Virus record (IMG/VR): IMGVR_UViG_3300034375_001949
Coordinates: 1 to 21,252 of that record
Reading direction: 5' to 3' (one strand)
Length of the DNA stretch: 21,252 nt
Source: a virus
Below, in pieces: positions 17,471-21,252 of the stretch. The notes beneath the pieces were generated by a model that ran no database searches, had not been told where the DNA came from, and saw nothing but the letters and a program-made list of their open reading frames with translations. The translations under genes were made by a program, and so were the position numbers. Positions within the stretch are counted from its first letter, which is position 1. The number at the start of each line of letters is the position of its first letter.

Positions 17471-18379
17471 TTACGCCGCGCCGGGAGTACCAAATACGCA
17501 GCGCCAGTCGGAAACGCCGAAGCTGTAACGCTCACGCGCTTTAAAGCGCATGTTACCGGTGTCAAAGTCTCCTTCCATTGCCGTTTTGATTGGCGAACGG
17601 TTGAAGTATTTGAAGCCGTTAGGAGCGTCAGTCTTGATGAAGAATGCGTCGGTGTCTGTCAGGAAGTGGTTAACCACTGCACCTTCAGGCAACATACCCA
17701 TGCTCTTCATGGCGTTCAGATCGTTGTCCGCAGTGCCCGAACGCAGGTTCGAGTTGATAACTCGCTCTGCGATGAACTGAAGCTCTTTCGGAATGATAAG
17801 CTTCATGCCGCGTACAGCAATCTTCAGACCGCGTTCGTCAGTCATACCCGCGATGTCGATCAGCATTTGCTCAAGCGAAGTCTCGTTGAGGTCAGCCGCA
17901 GTAGACAGCAAGTTGCGCTGGTTACCAGACAAAGATGGGTGAGCAGACGAACATAGCGCCGCGCCGTCACCAACAGGGCTGCCAGTCGAGAACGCATTGT
18001 TCAGGATGGAAGCAGCTTTGATTTGCTTGGTCTGAGCCATTGAGCGAGCCAAAGCTTTGGTGTAGCGAGATGCGAGACGATCATAAAGGTTATCTTCGAT
18101 AGCTTCTTCAGTGATCGAGAACGCAAGCGCGATGGTTTCGTGAGTGTAACGAGCAGTGTAAGTTTCCTGCGCTTCGTCAAAACTGATGGCACCGCCCTCA
18201 GATTTCGTTGGAGCTGTGGAAAAACCACCGAGCATAACTTCCTCTTCAAATGCACGGTCAGATGACTCTTCTTCGAAGATTTCAGAATGCTCATTCTCGT
18301 AACGGTTGTATTCGAGCCCGAACAAGGCATTAAGGCCGGGTTCCAGCTCTTTCGCTAGTTGTGCGCGAGAGATAGCCAT
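17471..18379 (-). CDS. Major capsid protein (HK97 fold)
   Basis: The protein has 302 residues, normal for the coat shell of a short-tailed phage. Residues 76-101 (ARYTHETIALAFSITEEAIE) fit the start of the HK97 core. A long spine helix (RYTKALARSMAQTKQIKAAS) follows at about 105-125. The loop DGAALCSSAHPSLSG (138-152) is typical of the Mu GpT-like capsid group. LKIAVRGMKLIIPKELQFIA near 185-204 and the final beta stretch RERYSFGVSDWRCVFGT fit the P and A domains. A consensus AAGGAGG sits nine bases before the ATG, in keeping with the highest expression in the cluster. The scaffold-like gene and decoration protein lie just upstream, and a strong terminator follows. Confidence 0.88.
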   Translation of the reverse strand: MAISRAQLAKELEPGLNALFGLEYNRYENEHSEIFEEESSDRAFEEEVMLGGFSTAPTKSEGGAISFDEAQETYTARYTHETIALAFSITEEAIEDNLYDRLASRYTKALARSMAQTKQIKAASILNNAFSTGSPVGDGAALCSSAHPSLSGNQRNLLSTAADLNETSLEQMLIDIAGMTDERGLKIAVRGMKLIIPKELQFIAERVINSNLRSGTADNDLNAMKSMGMLPEGAVVNHFLTDTDAFFIKTDAPNGFKYFNRSPIKTAMEGDFDTGNMRFKARERYSFGVSDWRCVFGTPGAA

Positions 18380-19560: not shown

Positions 19561-20418
19561 TTACTCCTTCACGTATTTCGCATATTCTTCAAGCGGCACA
19601 CCCAATTTCTTCGCTATTGCGACTTGGCTCGGGGTGAGTCGAACCTTTTTCCCACTGCGCCCAGAAGTTGTTCTCGAAGCGCCAACAACCGTCTGAGCGG
19701 CACGTTTGTTGGTGGCTTTTCCGCCATTTCCGAACTTGTCAGATATACGACGGTCGAGTTCAGTATAGTAGTCATCGCTCTGCGGGTCAAACCCTTCGTC
19801 TTCCACCAACTTTTTGTGGATACCAAAGGCCGCATAAGTCATGGCTTCATCTTGACCAAACCAAGAGTTGCGTAACGCCCACTGCTCCGCTTTTGGATCA
19901 GGACGGCGAGGCTGTTGCGCAGGCATCGGCTGACGCGCTTGGTGTTGCGCTGCCGCCTGTTGCTGACGCAAATAACGCTCTTGCTGCATCTTGGCCTGAT
20001 TTGCACGATCTTGTTGGATCGCTAAAGCAGTCAGTTTGCGCTGTGCTTCGACCGTTTTGCCGGAGTCCCCGACTTCGATAGCACGTGCAAGCTCATTTTC
20101 AGCCTGTTTAATTTCGGTGTTTACACGATTTGTGTATTCCGTGACGTAGTTTGTATCCAAACTACTGACGCGCTGCTTGAGACCTTGAGCCTCATTCTGG
20201 ACCGCTTGAGCATAACGAATTGCTTCTTGCTCACGGCGTTCCGCTTCACGCATCTTTTTGGTTAGGCGGTCAATACGCTTCTGCGTAGCTGTCTCCGCCT
20301 TACGAAAATTCTCGTCACTGTCACTGTCATCGTCTGAAGCTTGCGCCTCAATCTCGATTTCAGTGTCTTGCTCGTCCATATTCAGTTCGAGCTGGTCGTC
20401 GTCTCTATCTTCAGCCAT
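19561..20418 (-). CDS. Scaffold-like capsid assembly protein
   Basis: The protein has 285 residues. The N-terminus is very acidic (residues 1-35). A long charged coiled coil covers about 40-155 (RIDRLTKKMREAERREQEAI, then EIKQAENELARAIEVG). A Gln/Pro/Arg-rich linker (155-175) leads to WALRNSWFGQDEAMTYAAFG and a helix through DDYYTELDRRISDKFG. The C-terminus is basic and ends in a small helical hairpin (LTPSQVAIAKKLGVPLEEYA), the sort of positively charged end that binds coat proteins in podovirus scaffolds. It lies two genes before the capsid gene. No protease motif is visible. Scaffold is the best call from composition and position. Confidence 0.78.
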   Translation of the reverse strand: MAEDRDDDQLELNMDEQDTEIEIEAQASDDDSDSDENFRKAETATQKRIDRLTKKMREAERREQEAIRYAQAVQNEAQGLKQRVSSLDTNYVTEYTNRVNTEIKQAENELARAIEVGDSGKTVEAQRKLTALAIQQDRANQAKMQQERYLRQQQAAAQHQARQPMPAQQPRRPDPKAEQWALRNSWFGQDEAMTYAAFGIHKKLVEDEGFDPQSDDYYTELDRRISDKFGNGGKATNKRAAQTVVGASRTTSGRSGKKVRLTPSQVAIAKKLGVPLEEYAKYVKE

Positions 20419-20427
20419 GTTTCACCT

Positions 20428-20913
20428 TTATAAATGATGGATGTCTTCTGGGTCCATAATGGTCGCGAGTATCTCGTCATCGTTGAGAATACGGACCTCC
20501 CCGCCATCGATCTGGAAGCGTGAACCCGCATAGCGAGCAAACATAACCCACTGCTTTTCTTCACACCATGGACCGGACGGAAACTTGTCTTTGTCCTTGT
20601 AAGCCAAAGGACCGACTTTAAGGACGTAACCAACTTGAGTAGAGATGTTGCTCTTCTCTTGTACTTCGCTGGGGATAAAAATACCGCCCGCGGTTTTGGC
20701 TTTTCCTTGATATGGAAGGATCAGAATACGCCAGCCGGTAGGGGCGGGCATTCTTTCCAAAAGACTTGAACCAATCGCATCAGGATTGAGACGAGGTTTT
20801 TCGACGTAAGCGTCGGCGAGATTAGGCTTGTCGCCATTGTTCTCGGTAGTTTTAGCTAAAGCGGCTACACCTTCGGCGGCTGCCGCTAAGTCAATTTTTG
20901 CTGACTCAGTCAT
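20428..20913 (-). CDS. GroES-like co-chaperonin
   Basis: The protein has 161 residues. The Cpn10 core is about residues 56-153: APTGWRILILPYQGKAKTAG, then the mobile-loop tripeptide IFI in GGIFIP (76-81), VGYVLKVGPLAY, a WVMFARYAGSRFQIDGGEVR segment and LNDDEILATI. This matches GroES strand by strand, including the AGGI loop that docks on GroEL. Compared with bacterial GroES (about 97 residues) it has an extra N-terminal arm of about 55 residues rich in Ala and acidic side chains, and a short insert in the roof region. No GroEL gene is near, so it would act with the host GroEL, as T4 gp31 does for its capsid protein. The start overlaps the previous gene by eight bases. Confidence 0.87.
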   Translation of the reverse strand: MTESAKIDLAAAAEGVAALAKTTENNGDKPNLADAYVEKPRLNPDAIGSSLLERMPAPTGWRILILPYQGKAKTAGGIFIPSEVQEKSNISTQVGYVLKVGPLAYKDKDKFPSGPWCEEKQWVMFARYAGSRFQIDGGEVRILNDDEILATIMDPEDIHHL

Positions 20914-21103
20914 TAGATCGCTCCTGTTTATCTAGCAGGCCCTTGAGTTCCTGTTCCACGTGATTAAGGCATTCTAAGTTGCCCATAAGCTCACGATAAT
21001 GCTCCATCGACTTAACGTTTCCGTTTTGCATGTAGTCGACGCAACCTTGGCGACGTTCACGGATAATCCGAAACACCGCTTCGGCTATATAGATTTCATC
21101 CAT
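20906..21103 (-). CDS. Small helical conserved hypothetical protein
   Basis: The product has 65 residues and is almost entirely helical: EIYIAEAVFRIIRERRQGCV, then NVKSMEHYRELMGNLECLNH and VEQELKGLLDKQERSND. An AGGA sits a few bases before the ATG, and the stop lies inside the GroES-like gene. It is the first gene after the 92-base gap with the inverted repeat. I do not recognise its family. Size and helical hairpin plan are compatible with a small dimeric regulator or assembly helper, without evidence for either. Confidence 0.75.
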   Translation of the reverse strand: MDEIYIAEAVFRIIRERRQGCVDYMQNGNVKSMEHYRELMGNLECLNHVEQELKGLLDKQERSND

Positions 21104-21130
21104 TCAGTCCTCGCATATTATCGTACAACA

Positions 21131-21180
21131 TCTAGTGCATCCTAGCACAGCTAGTATAAGATATGCTAGGACAAACTAGA
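21131..21180 (-). promoter_or_regulatory. CTAG-rich 50-bp inverted repeat / hairpin
   Basis: The arms TCTAGT-4-CCTAGC and GCTAGG-4-ACTAGA are exact mirror complements around 21155/21156. CTAG occurs five times, at 21132, 21142, 21151, 21166 and 21176. Minus-strand RNA can pair 15 of 16 arm positions (13 Watson-Crick, 2 G-U, one mismatch) around an 18-base loop; plus-strand RNA can pair only 13. No U-tract follows, so it is not a classical terminator. It lies in the 5' region of the head-gene operon and may be an operator, an RNase III site or a leader structure. Confidence 0.65.
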
Positions 21181-21195
21181 TATTTATGCGAGTTC

Positions 21196-21252
21196 TTAGG
21201 GGCATAACCGCTCATACGTCTCGTTGTGAACGGTTACGTCGACAAGAAGACC
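21196..21252 (-). CDS. Possible C-terminal end of an upstream gene (partial)
   Basis: The minus frame from the right edge reads GLLVDVTVHNETYERLCP and stops at a TAA, 18 residues. Its codons look like those of the neighbouring genes. It would place the end of the next upstream gene 92 bases before the 65-residue gene. A competing plus-strand frame from an ATG at 21186 is also open to the edge but has no clear ribosome site and uses more rare-looking Arg codons. Confidence 0.4.
   Translation of the reverse strand, partial: GLLVDVTVHNETYERLCP

Follow-up and report, generated by a model that had tools for sequence, protein, structure and literature searches.

A CTAG-rich hairpin before a phage head operon is most likely a palindromic DNA site with a built-in promoter

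We analyzed a linear virus record of 21,252 bases, referred to as the window, in which the initial annotation had correctly placed a CTAG-rich repeat before the head operon. The repeat lies directly upstream of an ORF for a 65-aa protein, and this ORF is followed by the genes for a GroES-like co-chaperonin, a 285-aa protein and the major head protein (Table 1). The window ends 72 bases beyond the repeat and the gene upstream of the element is cut off. In one relative (G001), the order is a gene that we take from its sequence to be a terminase small-like gene, a 487-aa gene that by position is the terminase large subunit, portal (phrog_1216), endolysin (phrog_181), the element, and then the 65-aa, GroES, scaffold-like and capsid genes. 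The 65-aa ORF, which precedes GroES, was present in all 17 related records searched, HTVC027P among them. At the DNA level, Pelagibacter phage HTVC027P came closest among isolates, with 1 record matching 20% of the query, and the GroES protein matched 14 of 50,697 phage records, the best match being Phage DSL-LC04 (56%).

Table 1. Genes and sequence features at the head-operon start, in window coordinates; counts refer to the 89 upstream haplotypes of relatives
Feature	Position	Strand	Remarks
65-aa first ORF of the operon	20906..21103	-	phrog_32603; function unassigned
GroES-like co-chaperonin	20428..20913	-	phrog_3188, PF00166
285-aa protein	19561..20418	-	phrog_28737 (function unassigned); presumed scaffold-like from its position
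Major head protein	17471..18379	-	phrog_371, PF25209
32-bp dyad, operator-like	21140..21171	-	centre between 21156 and 21155; majority consensus TCCTAGCACATCTTATATAAGnTGTGCTAGGA, TA centre
Extended -10 TGCTAGGAT	21139..21147	-	TG 21147-21146, hexamer TAGGAT 21144-21139; reads toward the head operon
Left half-site TCCTAGCA	21164..21171	-	about -39 to -32; occupies the usual -35 place
Predicted transcription start	21131..21134	-	about 7 nt past the -10 hexamer, placed from the -10 position
Start-site palindrome of relatives, TATCnGACATTGTTCGATA	21119..21137	-	degenerate in the window, which reads CACTAGATGTTGTACGATA
Upstream box TCGCATAA	21184..21191	-	about -59 to -52; columns 8-15 conserved; the word is also present at further promoters in relatives
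Leader box TATGCGAGG	21109..21117	-	columns 82-90 conserved; covers most of the Shine-Dalgarno GCGAGGA (21108-21114)
Outer left CTAG	21176..21179	-	3/89 haplotypes, lineage-specific
Outer right CTAG	21132..21135	-	2/89 haplotypes, lineage-specific
Central CTAG	21151..21154	-	2/89 haplotypes, lineage-specific

The repeat itself is as had been described. Five CTAG tetramers, starting at positions 21132, 21142, 21151, 21166 and 21176 (whole cluster 21132-21179), fall within 50 bases, and the mirror pair shows the same outer-to-inner spacing of 10 in the left and the right arm. Across the window, CTAG occurs 25 times vs. 47.5 expected, and 25 randomly placed sites gave five within 50 bases in 0 of 20,000 trials. 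On the minus strand, the stem ATCTAGTTTGTCCTAGCA / TGCTAGGATGCACTAGAT combines 15 Watson–Crick pairs with 2 G–U pairs and 1 T–C mismatch, and for the window stem it holds that the two G–U pairs form solely in the minus-strand RNA. The minus-strand RNA of 21104-21200 was predicted to fold at -41.4 kcal/mol (z -7.15, equalled by 0/200 shuffles), and the plus-strand RNA of the repeat region at -30.9 kcal/mol (z -4.20, equalled by 1/200 shuffles). An outward extension of the stem, absent from the initial annotation, pairs CTCGCATA (21185-21192) with TATGCGAG (21110-21117), the Shine-Dalgarno included. A repeat search with a minimum length of 16 listed no inverted repeat of that length or longer. 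In a search of Rfam at a loose threshold, the sole match was mir-3146 at 19.4 bits (gathering threshold 96), which we attribute to chance.

Relatives were collected by four protein searches with GroES proteins of the phage family and consist of the best 80 IMG/VR phages in three of the searches and of all matches in the fourth, so the sample leans to close kin. Of 309 sequences, 290 contained the 65-aa gene. After starts less than 100 nt from a sequence end had been dropped, the distinct 95-nt upstream stretches numbered 90; that of HTVC027P (L096) did not align in register and was omitted, leaving 89 haplotypes. Positions 1-98 of the alignment correspond to window positions 21198-21101. Both inner CTAGs were present in 22 of the 89 haplotypes and both outer ones in 2. 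The initial annotation had stated that absence of the repeat from close relatives with the same gene order, or random substitutions in both arms, would speak against its hairpin, and results of this kind were seen for the outer pair: the outer left CTAG is present and the outer right one missing in two relatives (L211 and L375, the latter from a pattern search), and a third (L295) has both with an uncompensated base change in the right outer arm. As the outer and central CTAGs are rare among relatives, the four-CTAG mirror is peculiar to the local lineage, and what is conserved is the dyad inside it.

The halves of this dyad hold the inner CTAGs (21166-21169 and 21142-21145). Over alignment positions 28-59, 15 of the 16 pairs in the majority consensus of the 89 haplotypes are symmetric about a centre that falls between T43 and A44 (each found in 88/89), and 14 of 16 are so after collapsing the haplotypes to 49 or 25 clades. 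The symmetry depends on the register: 66.6% of the dyad cells were paired in register vs. 28-44% when slid, and among collapsed clades the Watson–Crick agreement was 56% in register vs. 15-37% when slid by 1-6. The inner eight pairs were symmetric at 7/8 in all haplotypes and at 6/8 in the collapsed set, while single sequences are moderately symmetric (median 9/16 Watson–Crick pairs). The symmetry had been said to fit a dimeric or tetrameric repressor; the inner 32 bp agree with a dimeric regulator, but the tetrameric reading is unsupported because the outer CTAG pair is lineage-specific.

The right half of the dyad contains a near-invariant block, T52 G53. T55 A56. G58 A59 T60 or TGnTAnGAT (T52 86, G53 86, T55 86, A56 89, G58 85 and T60 82 of 89), which has the TGnTAnnnT form and whose hexamer matches TATAAT at 4/6 positions. 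In the left half, a TCCTAG[C/T] box lies at alignment positions 28-34, and TCCTAGC was matched at no fewer than 5 of 7 positions in 74/89 haplotypes. The mirror position of T60, the T ending the hexamer, is A in just 9/89 haplotypes, and the dyad could thus serve as a promoter one way only.

The left half and a TTG-type -35 element were mutually exclusive. A TTG at a spacer of 16-19 was found in 0/74 haplotypes with the left half vs. 7/15 without it, in the latter at exactly 18 bp and in three sequence types; the remaining 8/15 also had no TTG -35. A strict consensus scan of the window for sigma-70 promoters found none, as expected for a promoter without a -35. The head operon of HTVC027P (MN698241) starts alike, with the same order of GroES, capsid and 65-aa homologue and with a promoter-like site (TTGACA...TAGTAT) followed by TTATGCGGG, but, unlike the element, it has a TTGACA -35 and no dyad. 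HTVC027P is reported to have no RNA polymerase gene and to depend on the host enzyme (PMC12753301), and CRP-901 and CRP-902 are reported to have no RNA polymerase genes (PMC10149686). A profile of single-subunit RNA polymerase (PF00940) matched 0/9 relatives, in a setting where its control matched 0/14 genomes too.

We asked how specific the element is to this place. A gene-blind pattern search of viral contigs gave at least 119 stretches, and 118 new loci from the matches listed, one of them from the genome-collection search, were scanned with the promoter profile. Among these listed matches, 34 of the 118 loci scored 43 or more, all having the upstream sequence of this operon, and the other 84 scored 18.2 or less. 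A GroES motif lay downstream in 33 of the 34 high-scoring loci listed; the one without it (L391) has the same upstream sequence as L327. The dyad pattern with an ATAT centre matched one contig, a Bacillota MAG, in a collection of bacterial and archaeal genomes, and a host operator was rejected. With 34 loci carrying the upstream sequence of the operon and one contig in the genome collection, the element belongs to this operon and this phage family. In most records, the promoter profile gave a single strong site per genome. Of 10 records, 6 had the core word TGCTARGAT once, 1 had it twice and 3 lacked it; on these counts, a repeated phage promoter was discarded. A direct repeat of TCCTA with a 10-bp period, a lambda CII-like geometry, was also set aside, as the dyad describes the consensus better.

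The initial annotation had read the two strand-specific G–U pairs as a hint of selection for RNA structure and had proposed compensatory changes in the arms as the check. The check went against it. Over the 89 haplotypes, the dyad arms showed 32 cells with compensatory changes on both sides vs. 46.7 in shuffled data (496/500 shuffles were at least as high), and pairing was 66.6% vs. 67.7% in shuffles, so the arms are symmetric without covarying. On the gene tree, we counted 44 inferred changes from Watson–Crick to G–U and 44 from Watson–Crick to A–C in the dyad, and with these numbers equal, the strand-specific hint fails to generalize. Single columns illustrate the pattern: among 75 haplotypes that have the left motif, column pair 30/57 has a left C in all but two and G, A or C on the right, and in pair 33/54 the left G stays opposite C, A or T. 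Among the 89 haplotypes, no covariation was found in the outer stem either (7 G–U vs. 15 A–C events on the gene tree), and many lineages retain one of its strands without the partner. The lack of covariation in the arms and the equal numbers of G–U and A–C changes favor DNA recognition and argue against an RNA hairpin. On the other hand, in 75/89 haplotypes the coding-strand RNA folds more stably than the complementary strand, an asymmetry not expected from DNA recognition alone, and the leader folds with z < -2 in 47/89.

The start-site palindrome behaves differently from the dyad and covaries mildly, with pairing of 82.8% vs. 80.0% and 23 vs. 14.0 compensatory cells (0/500 shuffles as high) and with 22 Watson–Crick to G–U vs. 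15 Watson–Crick to A–C events on the gene tree. We read it as a second operator, since its first bases would precede the predicted start. It is clearest in two relatives (L089:2802-2820 and L092:1691-1709). A conserved three-way RNA junction of the outer stem, the dyad and this palindrome was rejected, as the outer stem and the dyad show no covariation.

Rather than an RNA structure, the CTAG hairpin is most likely a DNA switch for the capsid genes: a conserved palindrome that binds a protein and contains a promoter. Given the conservation, symmetry and position of the element and its lack of covariation, we consider it probable that it is a host-polymerase promoter of the head operon with a built-in DNA operator. 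As read from the sequence, the extended -10 TGnTAnGAT on the minus strand would direct transcription into the 65-aa, GroES, scaffold-like and capsid genes, with host RNA polymerase using the promoter without a -35 element. The -10 would form the right half of the 32-bp dyad, centred at about -23.5, and TCCTAGC the left half at about -39 to -33; most likely, a putative dimeric, phage-encoded regulator would bind the dyad in place of the -35 contact. The hairpin would then be a by-product of the DNA symmetry, and the outer and central CTAGs local decoration. As for the sign of the regulation, we lean slightly toward an activator over a repressor because a TTG -35 at 18 bp is often seen in lineages that lost the left half. 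Against the promoter–operator reading stand the empty sigma-70 scan and the 4/6 match of the hexamer, the greater stability of the coding-strand RNA, the mild covariation of the start-site palindrome, the moderate symmetry of single sequences, the lack of a gene that tracks the dyad, and the eight haplotypes with neither the left half nor a TTG -35. More tentatively, and less likely than not, the element may represent a single-copy type of promoter, in which the -10 makes up one half of a 32-bp operator and a late regulator replaces the -35 role, driving capsid genes in aquatic phages without an RNA polymerase of their own.

The opposite sign, a sub-case of the same promoter–operator model, is a serious possibility: a phage repressor bound to the dyad, across the spacer and the -10, would keep the polymerase off until late in infection. 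The dyad, centred at -23.5, overlaps the promoter, the second palindrome covers the predicted start, and relatives encode a Cro/CI-type helix-turn-helix protein (L083:18686-19093, PF01381), all of which suit a repressor; however, a promoter without a -35 and with a 4/6 match at the -10 should be weak unaided, and TTG -35 elements appear just where the left half has been lost. Phylogenetic profiling gave no candidate for the regulator: across 15 labelled genomes (12 with the dyad and 3 without, several of them incomplete), no gene tracks the presence of the dyad, and we therefore name none. Relatives also encode an HTH_17 protein (L101:3818-4294, PF12728), excisionase/AlpA-like and placed among their early genes, with a hydrophobic C-terminal stretch resembling a membrane helix.

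In PMC3014915, T4 genes e, soc, 49 and I-TevI are described as having their start region hidden in read-through RNA, and late promoters inside the structure of gene e as yielding open RNA. With this precedent, read-through RNA could hide the Shine-Dalgarno of the 65-aa ORF, and RNA started internally, without the 5' arm, would be translated; we regard this as unlikely. As in the T4 leaders, the promoter lies inside a hairpin able to hide the Shine-Dalgarno: judged by sequence only, it sits in the 3' arm, downstream of the 5' arm, and the Shine-Dalgarno is in the outer stem. The predicted openness of the Shine-Dalgarno in the window was 0.16 in read-through vs. 0.34 in promoter-start RNA, with 7% of shuffles as closed, and the medians over the 89 haplotypes were 0.27 and 0.51 (shuffle mean 0.36), the promoter-start openness being rough (83/89 values) as start sites were partly mis-picked (e.g., the TGATAATGT rows). 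However, just 19/89 haplotypes were in the lowest tenth of shuffles, where about 9 are expected, neither the inner dyad nor the outer stem covaries, G–U and A–C changes are equal in the dyad, and an outer-stem strand is often kept without its partner; unlike in the T4 leaders, the pairing is not conserved. Closure is weak overall and suggestive in one clade (L112, L118, L122, L124, L130, L131 and L233), whose AGGAGG Shine-Dalgarno is predicted to be nearly all paired (openness 0.00-0.03 in read-through RNA) because the left box contains CUCCUA, the complement of this sequence. Judged from these predicted folds, an RNA switch would be sought with better prospects in the 95 nt before the 65-aa ORF of this clade than in the window.

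It is slightly less likely still that the symmetry arose by chance from two unrelated motifs, the left-hand box and the extended -10. The two halves vary independently and the constraint on the -10 alone explains the right half, but the symmetry reaches beyond both motifs (inner pairs 7/8, collapsed 6/8) and the TA centre is kept in 88/89. An RNase processing site or terminator between the lysis and head genes is very improbable, for although the fold is stable and in relatives the site sits between the endolysin and head genes, no terminator-like site (a GC-rich stem and a T run) was found and there is no selection for pairing.

Extended -10 promoters of host RNA polymerase carry TGnTAnnnT, have no recognizable -35 and start transcription 6-7 nt downstream. 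The element resembles them in the first two respects but differs in having an almost invariant G as the fourth base of the hexamer (85/89) and a -10 that belongs to a long dyad as one of its halves. MerR-type promoters have a TTG-type -35 with a spacer of 19-20 bp. The element shares with them a palindrome centred in the spacer between -35 and -10 (here at about -23.5) but has no TTG -35 (0/74 at spacers 16-19; the consensus at spacer 20 is CCTAGC), its dyad is 32 bp long and covers the -10, and profiling gave no dedicated regulator. In lambda CII sites and T4 MotA boxes, an activator site replaces the -35 and host RNA polymerase is used, the same logic as proposed here, but those are TTGC direct repeats or a single box, and the element is a dyad of unrelated sequence. 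The CII-type site consists of TTGC-N6-TTGC direct repeats flanking the -35, and this pattern is absent from the window sequence at the element. Operators of the TrpR type have CTAG in both half-sites; here, both inner CTAGs occur in just 22/89 haplotypes.

We found no published description of the head-operon promoter in the literature on HTVC027P and phage promoters, and the word "promoter" is absent from the main texts of PMC12753301 (the 2025 HTVC027P transcriptome), PMC10149686 and PMC9599517. The element is conserved regulatory DNA of an ordinary type, in a group of phages that has received little study, and it offers a precise and testable model of a late promoter for widespread aquatic phages related to HTVC023P and HTVC027P. 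The window also exemplifies how a hairpin that is striking in a single sequence can be a by-product of DNA symmetry.

Two further observations concern other sites. Early-type promoters of relatives (e.g., TTGACA-17-GATAAT) contain the words TATGCGATA / ATCGCATA, in many cases directly repeated at a distance of about 10 bp, at L101:4804-4984, L091:2811-2944, on the reverse strand of L083 and in other intergenic regions. The same word also flanks the window element, at its upstream and leader boxes (21184-21191 and 21109-21117), and the set looks like the operators of a phage-wide regulator. In Phage DSL-LC04 (L427:2180-2225), an unrelated inverted repeat, CAGACGGT...ACCGTCTG, is followed by TGCTAC or similar before the 65-aa homologue, a layout similar to that of the element in a different sequence.
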